Position numbers and translations under genes: made by a program. The notes under the pieces are model-generated. The model ran no database searches. It saw nothing but the letters and a program-made list of their open reading frames with translations, and was not told where the DNA came from. From Bacillota bacterium (GTDB lineage Bacteria > Bacillota > SHA-98 > Ch115 > JABLXJ01): DNA of 60,908 nt. Location of the stretch: NCBI GenBank assembly GCA_013178125.1, contig JABLXJ010000042.1, forward strand, positions 1-60,908, written 5' to 3'. Positions 24,919 through 29,587 of this stretch are shown here, piece by piece. The first letter of the stretch is position 1, and every line of letters starts with the position of its first letter.

Positions 24919-24941
24919 GCGGCGGGCTAATCGCCCGCCGC
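24919..24941. terminator. GC hairpin overlapping the stop of the P-loop gene
   Basis: GCGGCGGGC (24919-24927) and GCCCGCCGC (24933-24941) form a perfect 9-bp stem with a five-base loop. The loop holds part of the stop codon of the minus-strand gene. It separates two convergent genes and may act as a bidirectional terminator, although no T-run follows. Confidence 0.45.
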
Positions 24942-26057
24942 GGAAGAAGCCGGTGATACCTCAGCTGCATACCTCAATATGCGCGCCAGAATCTGTTCTC
25001 GCAGCTCCGTGATGCCATCGAAATCCATCGCCGGCGTATAGAAGGATTCCATCCGGTCGTGCTCGGTCTTTGCCTCACCAATGAAGCGGATTGCGCGGTT
25101 GAAGAGCCGCTCGAATATCTCGCGATCCTCGACCATTATCGATGAGAATCTGGTGGTTATGGACGGGGACAGGCACTCATTCATGTCGATTATAGTATCT
25201 TCAGGCGCAGGGGTGTAAGTATGCGGCTCGATCGATTTGGTCAGGGCAACTCCGAGGTCTGCGATGACGACATGCTCAACCTTCTCGGGGTTGAGTGGGC
25301 AGTGGTAGAATTCTACATCATGGCCCCGTTCTATAGCTGCGGTCGCAACCTTATAGAGGAGCGTTGATTTCCCGGTCCCGGGGTCGCCCTCGATAATGTA
25401 TTTCATCTGGCAGGTGCCGACGATCGTATCCAGGTAATTCATCAGGCCGTCCGGGGTTATGGCGCTGGCGAATAAATGCCTCGCCCGGCCAACTATGGAT
25501 GACGCAGGCCGGGTGCCGAAGATCTCCCTGATTATCTGCTCGGCCTTTTTATTTGCCTTTCCAAAATCCATCCCCTTGAGGTTGCATGCCTCCCAGTCGT
25601 CGTAAACCGCCTTGGCCGCCCTCAGGAACCGGTAGGCATGTTCAAAAAGCCTCGCTATATTCCCATTTGCTTCGAGAATCTCCTCCTTATGCTTGCGGAT
25701 CTGGGCCTCATCCCAGTAATCGCCCAGGTGGATGATCTCGTCGACGGCACCGGGCGTACGGGGGTCATATACATGTGGAGCTGTGCCATCGATCAGTGCC
25801 ACGCCGATGACCGGGATAACGACGCCATCGAGCGAGCCGTTGTCTGACGAACAGTGGTGCAACTCGACATCATATCCGCGGTCCACCATTGCTTCCGCTA
25901 TCTTGCGCATAAATGTGGACTTGCCGACGCCAGGGCCTCCCTTGATGACCAGTATGCGGGTTGCGTTTGGGGTAATGATCTGGTCGTAGAAGGAATAGAA
26001 CCCCTGGGGTGTATTGCCTCCAGGGAAGACCCTCTTGATGTAGCCCTTTCTTACCAT
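24927..26057 (-). CDS. Tandem P-loop ATPase of the PRK06851 type
   Basis: The 376-aa protein holds two copies of a P-loop domain. Walker A GGPGVGKST is at residues 40-48 and GDPGTGKST at 224-232. Each is followed by a similar block (YDVELHHCSSD...VVIPVIGVALIDG and HDVEFYHCPLN...VVIADLGVALTKS), so the gene arose by internal duplication. The family is found in spore-forming Bacillota and its role is not known to me. A conserved HHC/YHC in each half could bind metal. It is next to the cluster of tiny membrane proteins on the same strand. Confidence 0.8.
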   Translation of the reverse strand: MVRKGYIKRVFPGGNTPQGFYSFYDQIITPNATRILVIKGGPGVGKSTFMRKIAEAMVDRGYDVELHHCSSDNGSLDGVVIPVIGVALIDGTAPHVYDPRTPGAVDEIIHLGDYWDEAQIRKHKEEILEANGNIARLFEHAYRFLRAAKAVYDDWEACNLKGMDFGKANKKAEQIIREIFGTRPASSIVGRARHLFASAITPDGLMNYLDTIVGTCQMKYIIEGDPGTGKSTLLYKVATAAIERGHDVEFYHCPLNPEKVEHVVIADLGVALTKSIEPHTYTPAPEDTIIDMNECLSPSITTRFSSIMVEDREIFERLFNRAIRFIGEAKTEHDRMESFYTPAMDFDGITELREQILARILRYAAEVSPASSAAGD

Positions 26058-26453
26058 AGGCTGGTGCCAACCTCCTTATCCCACATTGGAGTCCCGATTT
26101 AGAGTCCCGATGGGATAGTTCCATAATATGGCTTTGAAGTCTAGGGAGTGCATATGCCAGGCGGGCGTTAACAAAAGTTTAACATCAGGCAGTATAGTAT
26201 AGTGCGCTGACTAGTTGCCTCTGATTGGTTGTTCCCGGGCTTACGGGATTCATTGGTACATGTTAAGCGTTTGGTAGATGTCAGGCGTGAGGGCCCACGC
26301 CTGCAAATGCATACTGCAGGCTGCATATTGCATATCCGCATACCGTTGGTATGGCCGGCCGGTTGCACCGCTGGTTCTACCCGGAGGCGCTTGAGGCGCT
26401 CACTGCGGGTCGAGCCCTATACTGCCGGCGTGGGCCCTGAGGTCACCCTGACC
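26058..26453. other. Gene-free region with several hairpins
   Basis: No convincing gene is seen. On the minus strand, the P-loop gene start is preceded by AAGGAGG. The stretch 26282-26442 is rich in inverted repeats: CAGGCGTG/CACGCCTG, CATACC/GGTATG with a 3-base loop, and a long-range pair AGGGCCCACGCC (near 26289) with GGCGTGGGCCCT (near 26429). The nested arrangement could be a structured RNA of about 160 nt on either strand. It carries no 6S, SRP, tmRNA or RNase P signature that I can recognise. Confidence 0.35.
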
Positions 26454-26582
26454 CTACCCCCTGGATGGCGCCGGGGCAGGGTTATTTGCTTCATCGCCCG
26501 GAGCCAGGAGGAATAGGAAGAAGAGTAATAGGATTAGGAGCAGGAAGAATATCAACTTATTACCCTGTTGAGCCCGGGGCAT
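26454..26582 (-). CDS. Small single-span membrane protein (42 aa)
   Basis: The predicted protein starts MPRAQQGNKL, has a strongly hydrophobic Leu/Phe segment (IFFLLLILLLFFLFLLAPG, residues about 11-29), and ends with a polar Pro-rich tail. The ATG at 26582 is supported by GGAGGAGGG eight bases upstream. No homologue is known to me. It resembles the very short membrane proteins often made during sporulation. Two more such genes lie on the same strand at 26738 and 27360, which raises confidence that it is real. Confidence 0.5.
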   Translation of the reverse strand: MPRAQQGNKLIFFLLLILLLFFLFLLAPGDEANNPAPAPSRG

Positions 26583-26737
26583 ACCGTGATCCCTCCTCCA
26601 GTGCAACATCCAGCGCTGGCCCGGTTGACAGCCAGGCGGCAACAAGTCCAGGCCTTCACCCAGGAAGCCAGATATAGGTAGGCAGCCGCGAGTTAAGGCG
26701 ATGGTCGATGGCTAAGGCAGCGATTGAGCAAAGTTTC

Positions 26738-26815
26738 CTAGAAGATCAGGAATAGGAGGAAAATGATGGCAAGTATCCATATCCACCACCAGAAGATCAC
26801 ACCCTTGGTTTCCAT
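26738..26815 (-). CDS. Tiny single-span membrane protein (25 aa)
   Basis: The frame METKGVIFWWWIWILAIIFL continues LFLIF and stops. A Trp-rich hydrophobic helix makes up nearly the whole peptide. AAAGGGGG stands seven bases before the ATG, a strong ribosome binding site that short random frames rarely have. A 20-bp palindrome and an 18-bp motif shared with the gene at 27360 lie 32-77 bp upstream. The peptide matches no family I know. Confidence 0.5.
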   Translation of the reverse strand: METKGVIFWWWIWILAIIFLLFLIF

Positions 26816-26846
26816 TGCCAGGCCCCCTTTACCTCAAGTATTGCCT

Positions 26847-26866
26847 GTGATCACTATAGTGATCAC
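26847..26866. promoter_or_regulatory. 20-bp perfect palindrome between divergent small genes
   Basis: GTGATCACTA-TAGTGATCAC is perfectly self-complementary. A further half-site-like GGTCACTA follows at 26875. It lies between the minus-strand 25-aa gene (start 26815) and the plus-strand 96-aa gene (start 26984), a typical place for an operator that controls both. Confidence 0.5.
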
Positions 26867-26874
26867 TACCATAC

Positions 26875-26892
26875 GGTCACTACATAATATGG
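26875..26892 (-). promoter_or_regulatory. 18-bp motif shared by the tiny-protein genes, copy 1
   Basis: Plus-strand GGTCACTACATAATATGG recurs with one mismatch at 27516-27533. Each copy lies 49-60 bp upstream of a minus-strand tiny membrane protein gene. On the minus strand it reads CCATATTATG..., and CATATT resembles the -35 element of sporulation sigma-E promoters, but I find no convincing -10 at the right distance. Confidence 0.45.
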
Positions 26893-26983
26893 CCTGGTGA
26901 CCCAGGAGGTTCCAGGCGTGACGCCTTTATCTTCTCATTCATAATATGTTTATGTAATAACCATAAAAAGGGGGGGCTATCTC

Positions 26984-27274
26984 ATGTGGATGCGGGATAC
27001 TCAGCAAAGCGTACCCACTGTCAGCCCTGCGTTGACCTACATTTTGGTGGGGGTGGCTGCCCTGTCAGCCTTCGATTCCTTCGTTTTGAGGCTCGGCTCG
27101 GGAAAGGAAGGCTCGGGGGGGAAACCGGAACCGGGCCAGCCAGCGGAGGCCGGTGGGTCAATTTCGGCCTCAGGGGGTGTAAAGGATTCTATAGGGGTAA
27201 AGGATTCCATAAAGGAAGAGGAACCAGGGAACGGTCCACAGGTTCCGCAGCCGGGGGCGAGCCCGGAATCGTAA
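26984..27274 (+). CDS. Small membrane protein of unknown function (96 aa)
   Basis: Residues about 14-36 are hydrophobic (PALTYILVGVAALSAFDSF), followed by a charged, Gly/Pro-rich tail that contains a slipped duplication (GVKDSIGVKDSI). GGGGGGG lies seven bases before the ATG. The stop codon TAA is inside the left arm of a 51-base hairpin. I do not recognise the family. Its position beside other small membrane proteins and before the ybaB-ger block suggests a sporulation-related role, which is inference. Confidence 0.55.
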   Translation: MWMRDTQQSVPTVSPALTYILVGVAALSAFDSFVLRLGSGKEGSGGKPEPGQPAEAGGSISASGGVKDSIGVKDSIKEEEPGNGPQVPQPGASPES

Positions 27275-27321
27275 GAAAGGACCGGCTCACGTCGATCCGA
27301 CGAGAGCCGGTCCTTTCTTAC
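27271..27321. terminator. 51-base near-perfect hairpin, bidirectional terminator
   Basis: GTAAGAAAGGACCGGCTC (27271-27288) pairs with GAGCCGGTCCTTTCTTAC (27304-27321). Inside, CGTCG/CGACG continue the stem around a 3-base loop, with a single A/A mismatch. It overlaps the stop codon of the plus-strand gene and lies 39 bp beyond the stop of the minus-strand 35-aa gene, so it separates convergent units. Confidence 0.75.
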
Positions 27322-27359
27322 CCGCGCACCTGATGGCATCCGGGGCGAAATCTCAAGCT

Positions 27360-27467
27360 TTATGGCTCCTTCGCCGTCTCGAGCGGGAAGAGGAAGAAGA
27401 AAAAGAAGAGAAAGAATATCACCAAGATGATAATCCAGAACCACCAATCAGGAGACATTGCCTTCAT
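27360..27467 (-). CDS. Small single-span membrane protein (35 aa)
   Basis: The frame MKAMSPDWWFWIIILVIFFL continues with a Phe/Leu-rich stretch and a short polar end (PLETAKEP). GGGAGG stands before the ATG. Like the 25-aa peptide at 26738 it combines a Trp-rich start with one hydrophobic helix, and both carry nearly the same 18-bp motif upstream. Too short for homology to be judged by eye. Confidence 0.55.
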   Translation of the reverse strand: MKAMSPDWWFWIIILVIFFLFFFFFLFPLETAKEP

Positions 27468-27515
27468 CTACGGGGCCTCCCTTCGTAAGCTTTTCGCCTG
27501 GTAGCTTTGTGCCCA

Positions 27516-27533
27516 GGTCAATACATAATATGG
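27516..27533 (-). promoter_or_regulatory. 18-bp motif shared by the tiny-protein genes, copy 2
   Basis: GGTCAATACATAATATGG differs at one position from the copy at 26875-26892 and lies 49 bp upstream of the 35-aa gene on the minus strand. Confidence 0.45.
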
Positions 27534-27738
27534 TGATGCTCGCTGAAGTGTGAGTTGCGTGATCTCCCGAATATAAATGGAGATAATCATTGCATCATGC
27601 CTGTGCGTGCCTGTGCGGTATGGTTTTACCGATGTTTTGAACGCTGCCGGGGCAACGTGGAAGGTACATAGAAGGTACATAAGATGGGGGGCGTGAATAT
27701 ACTCTAATGAACGGCCTAAAGGAGGGAGAGATAACCCT

Positions 27739-28068
27739 ATGAGTCAGGACTTGAGCAATCTTTTCTCGGGGATTCAGAAGATGCACGAGAACGCCTCCCA
27801 GCTCCAGAAGGATCTCCAGGCGAAGACAGTTGAGGTAGTAAGCGATGGTGGGGATGTCAGGGTCGTGGTAAACGCTTGCCAGGAGGTGGTTAGCATCGAG
27901 CTGAATCCTTCGATGCTTCGTACCAGGAGCGCGGCGGATATCCAGAAGCTGCTGGTGCATACGATCAACGAGGCCTTCATGAAGTCGCGAGTACTGATAG
28001 CCAACGAGGTGGGTAAGCTCTTTATAGGGAATGAAGTAGGGAAGCTCTTCTCAGGAAGCCCGGAATAA
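27739..28068 (+). CDS. YbaB/EbfC-family nucleoid-associated protein homologue
   Basis: The 109-aa protein follows the YbaB pattern: a helical N-terminus (GIQKMHENASQLQKDLQAKT), the beta strands VEVVSDGGDVRVVVNACQEV, and helix KLLVHTINEAFMKS. YbaB proteins bind DNA as dimers. The usual gene sits with dnaX and recR; this copy instead heads a cluster of small unknown proteins before a germination operon, so it may be a specialised paralogue. The C-terminus has a slipped duplication (NEVGKLFIGNEVGKLFSG). AAAGGAGGGAGA precedes the start. Confidence 0.78.
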   Translation: MSQDLSNLFSGIQKMHENASQLQKDLQAKTVEVVSDGGDVRVVVNACQEVVSIELNPSMLRTRSAADIQKLLVHTINEAFMKSRVLIANEVGKLFIGNEVGKLFSGSPE

Positions 28069-28110
28069 GGCCAGGGGAACAGGGTTAGAGTCATGCAGTG
28101 AGGGGGACGG

Positions 28111-28650
28111 ATGATGCCGGATGAGAATAACCGGAGCCTGATGGATATTCTTATGAGCCTTATGAATTCTCAAGCTCAAGGCACTCTGGATTCCGAGGTC
28201 CTGATAGGGGTCCTTGCCCTGCTCAACCTGCTGAGCATTGTGAGCTTTCTCAACACCGGGGCCCCGATGCGCAGCCAGGGCGCAGGGATAGATGCAGGTG
28301 CATGGACAGGTGCAGGGGCTGGGACTGGCCCCGCGGCTGCGGCGGTCCCCGGCTCCGTTGCTGCTGACAGTAAGCTACCGACCGACTTGAAGGCCCTGGG
28401 GGAGCTTATAGGGAATCTCGCGGGACGCGCCGGCCAGAGCCAGACACAGAGCCAGGCGCCTGATATGAGCGCTCTTATGAATATGCTTGCAAGCCAGCTC
28501 GGATCGAAGATAAATCCCAGCATGCTACCCGCGCTTATAAACCTTCTTTCCGCGTATATGAAACAAAAAGGCGCAGCAGGCTCCGGGCAGGGCCAGACGG
28601 CGGGTCAGGCGGCGCAGAAGGACCAGAAGGATTCGGGGGGAGAGGGGTAA
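28111..28650 (+). CDS. Unknown protein with hydrophobic core, small-protein cluster (179 aa)
   Basis: The N-terminal helix (SLMDILMSLMNSQ) is followed by a hydrophobic segment at residues 28-47 (DSEVLIGVLALLNLLSIVSF), an Ala/Gly-rich variable linker, a helical block (KINPSMLPALINLLSAYMK) and a Gln/Gly-rich tail. The hydrophobic segment aligns with residues 22-41 of the next protein. AGGGGG lies four bases before ATG 28111 and seven before ATG 28114, so the start may be the second. No known family. Probably one operon with ybaB. Confidence 0.65.
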   Translation: MMPDENNRSLMDILMSLMNSQAQGTLDSEVLIGVLALLNLLSIVSFLNTGAPMRSQGAGIDAGAWTGAGAGTGPAAAAVPGSVAADSKLPTDLKALGELIGNLAGRAGQSQTQSQAPDMSALMNMLASQLGSKINPSMLPALINLLSAYMKQKGAAGSGQGQTAGQAAQKDQKDSGGEG

Positions 28651-28656
28651 GCGGCG

Positions 28657-29151
28657 ATGGACAGTTCGGAACTATTGATGGCGCTCGAGATGCTCAAGAA
28701 GCTTGAGCAGGAGAGGGTTGATACGGGCCAGCTGCTGGTGACCCTGGGCCTCTTTGACTTGCTGGCAACAATGAGCATGCTCAGTGCACGTCTTGCGAAG
28801 GCTAGGGCATCCGCAGCCGCAGCGAAATCCGGAGCCACCGGGGCCGAGCAACTGTCCACGCGACGCGCACCGCAGCCGCAACTGCTGGAGATGCCGCGAG
28901 CGCGAGCAGCCGGTTATGAGCCTGAGGATGCCAGGCGTGTAAAAGAGCTGCCCCTGGATGCAGGCGGGCGCGAAGGGCGCTCGGTTGAAGGTGATGGGGT
29001 CGATGAGGGAGCGGGTGCGCTGGAGGGCACCCTGGAGAAGAAAGAGAGGCCGGCAGGCATCGGAGGGATAGCAGGCGAGGGTGACGGCGGGAAGAAGCTT
29101 GCGCGAAAGTCCCTTGACTGGCGGCGGCAATGGAAGCAGAGCGCGGGCTAA
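28657..29151 (+). CDS. Unknown protein, paralogue of its upstream neighbour (164 aa)
   Basis: An N-terminal helix (SSELLMALEMLKKLEQERV) precedes the hydrophobic stretch DTGQLLVTLGLFDLLATMSM, which matches the neighbour's DSEVLIGVLALLNLLSIVSF in the spacing of its Leu, Asp and Ser residues. The remaining 120 residues are charged and low in complexity. The gene begins seven bases after the upstream stop, with AGGGG nine bases before the ATG, so translation is probably coupled. Function unknown. Confidence 0.65.
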   Translation: MDSSELLMALEMLKKLEQERVDTGQLLVTLGLFDLLATMSMLSARLAKARASAAAAKSGATGAEQLSTRRAPQPQLLEMPRARAAGYEPEDARRVKELPLDAGGREGRSVEGDGVDEGAGALEGTLEKKERPAGIGGIAGEGDGGKKLARKSLDWRRQWKQSAG

Positions 29152-29240
29152 CTCGATCTGGCCTATTCGATTGGTGTCAGAGAAGGCCCGGTGGATTCTT
29201 ATAGATTAGTATGGAGACCAGTCTGGAGGGGGGATGCTTG

Positions 29241-29501
29241 ATGGCCCAGGCGATGAGTTCGGAAGAACTGGCGTTGGTGTCTGCTCTAAAACCCTTCGCA
29301 ACCCCGCATGGCCAGGCTCTCATTGATATGTTCCTAAGCCTGGTCGAGAAGCCTTCCGTAGCCTCAGAGCGCGGGACACTGGACGTGGCGGCGATGCGAG
29401 CCGAGGTCAACCAGCTTGTATCGCGCCAGGTAGAGAACCTGTTTGTCTTGTTTGTGCTATTCGCCCTATTATTCCTTCCACCTGGTCCGGTGGGCAAATA
29501 A
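29241..29501 (+). CDS. Unknown small protein with C-terminal membrane helix (86 aa)
   Basis: The start at 29241 is fixed by GGAGGGGGG seven bases upstream. The upstream in-frame ATG at 29211 lacks a binding site. The helix KPFATPHGQALIDMFLSLVE weakly resembles the C-terminal helix of the 179-aa protein, and residues 67-79 (LFVLFVLFALLFL) form a terminal hydrophobic segment. It is the last gene before a strong terminator, so ybaB and the three unknown genes look like one transcription unit. Confidence 0.6.
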   Translation: MAQAMSSEELALVSALKPFATPHGQALIDMFLSLVEKPSVASERGTLDVAAMRAEVNQLVSRQVENLFVLFVLFALLFLPPGPVGK

Positions 29502-29548
29502 ATTCACAAAGGGAATGCGCCAAGGGGAAATGGAAGAATAGCAGTAGT

Positions 29549-29587
29549 CTGGAGTCGGCAATGATAATATTGCCGGCTCCAGTTTTT
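29549..29587 (+). terminator. Intrinsic terminator of the ybaB/small-protein operon
   Basis: CTGGAGTCGGCAAT (29549-29562) and ATTGCCGGCTCCAG (29569-29582) form a 14-bp stem (one G-U pair in RNA) with loop GATAAT, followed directly by TTTTT. A textbook rho-independent terminator that separates this operon from gerA. Confidence 0.85.

Follow-up and report, generated by a model that had tools for sequence, protein, structure and literature searches.

What brings tiny membrane proteins, a second YbaB homologue and several proteins of nameless families together, immediately in front of a germination operon? The question is raised by a gene unit at positions 26122-29582 of the window, by which we mean the whole 60,908-nucleotide contig JABLXJ010000042.1 of a Bacillota bacterium (assembly GCA_013178125.1; genome G000). 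A preliminary description had listed one-helix proteins of 42, 25 and 35 amino acids (aa) on the minus strand and, on the plus strand, a YbaB homologue and proteins of 96, 179, 164 and 86 aa; all of these frames are present where it placed them, and we name them by length (t42, t25 and t35; m96, p179, p164 and p86), apart from the YbaB homologue, YbaB2, which has 109 aa. The oddity that it pointed to is real: an unnamed gene set with YbaB2, p179 and p86 as its core recurs across the phylum. We are confident that this is a conserved sporulation gene set, and we lean towards viewing it as a late-sporulation set of the mother cell that would encode hydrophobic spore-envelope proteins and, in YbaB2, a partner for their assembly. 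The features on which the argument draws are as follows.

24927-26057, minus strand: PRK06851-type double P-loop ATPase gene (NF005320, E 1.2e-106, yet under the curated cut-off)
26122-26149, minus strand: sigma-K-like promoter of the ATPase gene, ACTCCCTAGACTTCAAAGCCATATTATG
26454-26582, minus strand: t42, 42-aa one-helix protein, very hydrophobic, strong ribosome-binding site (RBS)
26738-26815, minus strand: t25, 25-aa one-helix protein, METKGxIFWWWI, found in four genomes of two families
26883-26910, minus strand: sigma-K-like promoter of t25
26921-26948, plus strand: sigma-K-like promoter of m96, also present in the same-genus relative L032
26984-27274, plus strand: m96, 96 aa, one hydrophobic stretch, 51% over 74 aa in the same genus
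27272-27320, no strand: 17-bp perfect inverted repeat, read from the sequence, terminator-like on the minus strand
27360-27467, minus strand: t35, 35-aa one-helix protein, MKxxxPDWWFWIIIL-poly-F, found in four genomes
27524-27551, minus strand: sigma-K-like promoter of t35, AC-N17-CATAnTATG in 4/4 genomes of the order
27677-27703, plus strand: promoter-like site of ybaB2, AC-N17-AATATACT, spacing and -10 identical in 4/4 genomes
27739-28068, plus strand: YbaB2, second YbaB/EbfC-family protein, 109 aa (PF02575, E 2.3e-17)
28111-28650, plus strand: p179, 179 aa, helical hairpin and NPxxLxxLxNLL segment, nameless family
28657-29151, plus strand: p164, 164 aa, p179-like paralogue (p179 profile, E about 1e-3), C-terminal LDWRRQWK
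29241-29501, plus strand: p86, 86 aa, LKPF-P-GQ-LID hairpin and C-terminal membrane helix, nameless family
29549-29582, plus strand: intrinsic terminator between the unit and gerA, 15 pairs then T5

All three of the relatives examined within the order keep the unit. L032 keeps the gene order t25, m96, t35, YbaB2, p179, p164, p86, terminator and gerA; in two genomes from the order's other family (L033 and L035), t25 and t35 lie divergently beside YbaB2, together with p86 and a single p179/p164 gene.

The promoters suggest when the set would be expressed. AC-N17-CATAnTATG occurs four times in the 61-kb window, where 0.05 matches are expected, and the four matches precede t25, t35, m96 and the ATPase gene (AC-N17-CATATTATG, kept in the same-genus genome) and nothing else; genome-wide, the motif has 13 matches versus three for the reversed control. 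The AC-N17-CATA spacing is kept at all four genes in L032, where the t25 site reads CATATAATG. All four sites have the -35 AC, the spacer of 16-17 nt and the -10 CATAnnnT, with TG rather than TA as final bases. A cross-family scan for AC-N16/17-CATAnnnT within 150 bases upstream located the site at 17 of 23 lead tiny genes (six of the 23 come from the window's order, where the motif was first noticed) and 17 of 31 p86 genes; of the other genes in these loci 13 of 190 have it, and none of 16 sleB and none of 37 p179 genes do (Fisher p 1e-12 and 1e-4 for the cross-family comparisons). In C. difficile, sigma-E and sigma-K have their -10 element in common and differ at -35, which is ATA for sigma-E and AC for sigma-K (PMC3789822); by this rule, the AC found here points to sigma-K, the late mother-cell factor. 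The sigK gene is intact and over the curated cut-off in all four genomes of the order (348 bits versus 298.65 for TIGR02846 in G000). Judged by these sites, the set is very probably under mother-cell sigma-K control, and the ATPase gene, given the promoter type that it has in common with the unit, is a possible extra member of the regulon.

The set is carried by spore formers. Among 299 sampled genomes of the phylum, a p179 profile found 77 carriers and p86 occurs in 87, with both present in 68 of the 77 (some by the membrane helix only). SpoIVA is encoded in 74 of the 77 p179 carriers, the remaining three being only 61-75% complete; SpoIVA occurs in 68/68 high-quality p179 carriers versus 229/267 high-quality genomes overall (hypergeometric p 5e-6), and YpeB in 74/77 p179 carriers versus 199/299 (p 2e-12), distribution counts and p values that are not corrected for kinship. 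In 34 genomes from nine family groups, p179 and YpeB are no more than 5 kb apart, against a chance expectation of below one; typically, sleB-ypeB occupies one strand and p86, YbaB2 and p179 the other. Named carriers, reached via a conserved neighbouring peptidase because the broad alignment of p86 varied too much for scanning, are Moorella mulderi, M. stamsii, M. sulfitireducens, Thermanaeromonas, Desulfovirgula, Desulforamulus aeronauticus, Desulfotomaculum copahuensis, Desulfotruncus arcticus, Desulfoscipio and Ammonifex. The spore proteome of M. thermoacetica, which covered only orthologues of known spore proteins, includes YpeB (PMC8745062).

The preliminary description had inferred a role in sporulation or germination from position; carriers, promoters and the proximity of sleB-ypeB uphold the sporulation part, whereas the tie to gerABC is not general. 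As it had noted, a strong terminator stands directly before gerA (PF03323, E 2.6e-160), which is followed by GerB and GerC, and in L032 the base changes in this terminator preserve the stem; the set and gerABC are thus, as far as this conserved element indicates, separate transcription units. No gerA was found in the stretches read from L033 and L035, where the set is flanked by other genes. Elsewhere gerABC adjoins the set in family group f1 and in genome G049 (L082), and in most genomes outside the order the set lies by sleB-ypeB or at other places. A mechanism built on the gerA operon was rejected on the grounds of the terminator and the altered neighbourhood in the sister family. That the products form a germination module in the inner spore membrane, helping the GerA receptor or SleB-YpeB, would fit the 34 genomes with sleB-ypeB nearby and the places where gerABC adjoins; however, the set has promoters of mother-cell type and the adjacent sleB has none, the sleB-ypeB cortex lysis operon is a frequent neighbour yet a separate unit, usually on the opposite strand, and the inner membrane is not easily reached by mother-cell proteins. 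We regard a germination module as improbable.

What, then, is YbaB2? It matches PF02575 with 63.4 bits (curated cut-off 25.5; domain at residues 12-95) and scores 41.4 bits against the TIGR00103 equivalog, under its cut-off of 49.45. It has the domain, and PDB relatives (1ybx, 5yrx and 1pug), in common with the housekeeping YbaB/EbfC of dnaX-ybaB-recR; it differs in its place away from dnaX-recR, rightly reported earlier (the ordinary copy is on contig 16 of G000, beside a RecR-like gene and a DnaX-like gene of 456 aa), in its sigma-K-type promoter within the order and in its spore-forming carriers. On a tree built on a short alignment the two types are almost separate, with two label changes where shuffles gave 19.6 and 0/500 were that low, so that a single ancient origin of YbaB2 is compatible with the tree; the YbaB2 clade is fast-evolving. 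Our search of the literature turned up nothing on YbaB in sporulation of relevance to this set. A mycobacterial YbaB-domain protein, EspL, stabilises EspE, EspF and EspH, which are depleted upon its loss, and at the transcript level this loss affects just a single gene (PMC6319747). EspL belongs to ESX-1 and differs from YbaB2 in organism, pathway and partners, so the likeness is an analogy of function only; by that analogy, YbaB2 may be an assembly partner rather than a DNA-binder, a proposal to which we give slightly less than even weight. Alternatively, YbaB2 could be a nucleoid or regulatory DNA-binding protein of the sporulating mother cell, and its small neighbours unrelated late genes with common promoters. 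DNA binding is reported for the YbaB/EbfC proteins of E. coli and Haemophilus (PMC2720974), the Pfam domain of YbaB2 is intact, and tiny genes are found away from YbaB2 too; but in many families YbaB2 stays beside p86 and p179, in varying gene order and with or without sleB-ypeB, and its sub-cut-off score and own fast-evolving clade also speak for a departure from the housekeeping type. We consider a DNA-binding role of this kind unlikely.

The reading that we favour, a mother-cell set of envelope proteins with YbaB2 as assembly partner, would proceed in three steps. After engulfment, as the promoters strongly suggest, sigma-K-type sites would be read to transcribe the tiny genes, m96 and a YbaB2-p179-p164-p86 operon, as a unit apart from gerA. 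The tiny proteins, p86 and the hydrophobic p179 and p164 would then become small, abundant parts of an outer layer of the spore or of the outer forespore membrane, close to the site of later cortex opening by SleB-YpeB; as products of the mother cell arrive at the spore from outside, outer layers are the expected destination, and a spore-envelope location is probable. Finally, YbaB2, no longer serving the nucleoid, would act as a dimer and a dedicated scaffold or chaperone that keeps its very hydrophobic partners soluble and delivers them for assembly. A wider generalization, that an ancient YbaB paralogue serves as assembly chaperone for a layer of hydrophobic tiny proteins, p86 and p179 in many Clostridia-type spore formers, with no counterpart in the B. 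subtilis coat, seems to us doubtful at present.

Several observations weigh against the favoured reading. The -10 element in the window's order is CATAnTATG, whereas the textbook form is CATAnnnTA; at the YbaB2 site the -10 diverges (AATATACT), and most YbaB2 genes elsewhere lack a site of their own (3/17 have one), as would be expected only if the p86 promoter serves them. Family f3, a sister family within the same class, has SpoIVA and neither p179 nor p86, so sporulation does not require the set. The intact domain of YbaB2 is compatible with DNA binding. The predicted structures are weak (predicted local distance difference test, pLDDT, of 59 for p179, with a helical hairpin at 5-48, and of 70 for p86, with helices at 7-15, 22-36 and 49-78), and at low confidence they are compatible with helical membrane or scaffold proteins. 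We found no expression, localisation or mutant data for any member of the set.

Are the tiny frames genes at all? The frames and starts of t25 and t35 are kept in four genomes of two families, the t35 promoter is kept in four genomes (the t25 promoter was compared in two), and the nonsynonymous rate (dN) is below the synonymous rate (dS) in each pair with estimable dS; as these comparisons indicate, t25 and t35 are under purifying selection. The weakest member of the set is t42, for which L032 has no counterpart; it may sit behind t25 on a shared transcript. The conservation that the preliminary description had asked about is thus borne out for t25 and t35 and not for t42, and the strong RBS that it had assigned to each tiny gene is seen at t42, whereas that of t25 is weaker (AAGGGGG). 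Chance frames in pyrimidine-rich DNA, with the larger genes alone being real, might account for the low-complexity poly-F tails and the unconserved t42; such an origin is scarcely credible given that four genomes keep the starts, the RBS and promoters, and the METKG and PDWWFW ends, that dN is below dS, and that paralogues of the same plan exist elsewhere.

Two kinds of tiny protein can be told apart. The first, MA..RxFLxFLILILLLLGD, occurs in 85 of the 299 genomes with up to 12 copies each, often adjoining p86 or p179, and was not found in genomes G000, G001 and G002. The second, which is W-rich at its start and has a poly-F tail, takes in t35, and t35-like paralogues lie at further sites in genomes of the order. 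Seven paralogues there follow the plan WWWW-IIII-FFFFF-P (L230, L229, L227, L228, L231, L232 and L234), with a full RBS in all and an AC-N17-CATA site upstream in 4/7. One of the other nine genomic matches to AC-N17-CATAnTATG in G000 precedes a further tiny membrane gene, of 37 aa (GGWWIWVIILAVF; L210:1683-1796, contig 1, near 434.4 kb). In Ammonifex thiophilus (L188:7524-8933), four different tiny one-helix genes surround YbaB2 and the peptidase.

Bacillus spores contain tiny membrane proteins of the YjcZ/SscA type (TIGR01732, PF09680). The proteins described here resemble them in having 25-40 aa, one hydrophobic helix and spore-forming hosts, and differ in their motifs (FxLFLILILLLLGD; WWWWIIII-FFFFF-P); t42, t25, t35 and ten relatives gave no match to the Pfam and NCBIfam tiny membrane models. 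B. subtilis YjcZ belongs to the sigma-K regulon (PMC517825). Type I toxins or other small lytic peptides would likewise be expected to look as these do (25-42 aa with one helix and, in other genomes, copies in tandem), but sigma-K-type promoters, the near restriction to spore formers and fusion or fission with p86 make a toxin function very improbable.

The larger plus-strand proteins were searched in the same databases. For p179 and p86, which had been called unknown and remain without a name, 32 and 22 members, respectively, gave no match to Pfam or NCBIfam at E 0.01, and the two profiles gave none to the PDB; no function emerged from Pfam, NCBIfam, PHROGs or the PDB for p86 and p179 nor, where searched, for p164, m96 and the tiny proteins. 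The single p179/p164 gene of L033 and L035 joins a p179-like start to a C-terminal LDWRxQWK as in p164, and p179 and p164 therefore look like a duplicated or split pair. The LKPF-P-GQ-xID hairpin of p86 is followed in many genomes by a C-terminal helix, NPFxLFLILILLIL, and in other genomes this helix is a separate tiny gene directly beside p86, a fusion-and-fission pattern which suggests that the parts act together. For m96, described earlier as a membrane protein, the frame is present with one moderately hydrophobic stretch only, and no family match was found; homology of m96 to p179, raised by an alignment, was unsupported by the p179 profile.

Searches for coat and envelope proteins start from B. 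subtilis genes and therefore miss those of most spore formers outside Bacillus. The set offers new candidate spore proteins for about one quarter of the sampled genomes, Moorella included, and no spores known from food spoilage are more heat-resistant than those of M. thermoacetica (PMC8745062). Neighbourhood, distribution and promoter here link two nameless families with a YbaB paralogue and with several kinds of tiny protein; these raise the question of a protein-assembly function for the widespread YbaB fold, and indicate that promoter and neighbourhood, instead of length, can lead to tiny sporulation genes.

Some further features of these loci deserve mention. The 17-bp repeat between the convergent m96 and t35 is probably a two-way terminator. 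The neighbouring peptidase is trypsin-like, with invariant NNH and GDSG motifs and about 50% identity across families (L079:4039-5190, L082:7827-8831, L119:1495-2517 and others); it often adjoins the set, has a sigma-K-like site in 21/80 cases, and in the window's order is located elsewhere, near a Veg-like gene. Desulfotomaculum-type p179 proteins (L203:15157-16029, L159:14732-15442 and L096:6586-7221) have LKWxxxL ends resembling the LDWRRQWK of p164, and the two are possibly one interaction motif. In four Moorella-type genomes, three of them named Moorella and one of the same family group (L132:12575-12900, L145:12722-13050, L137:12730-13050 and L099:6928-7260), a conserved in-frame TGA separates the soluble part of p86 from the membrane helix and is followed by a hairpin (loop about 18 nt downstream of the TGA) and then T7; M. 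sulfitireducens (L134) lacks this TGA. The codons downstream of it look to be under purifying selection, and candidate explanations from the sequence are readthrough (perhaps as selenocysteine) and, alternatively, internal initiation combined with a -1 slip at T7.

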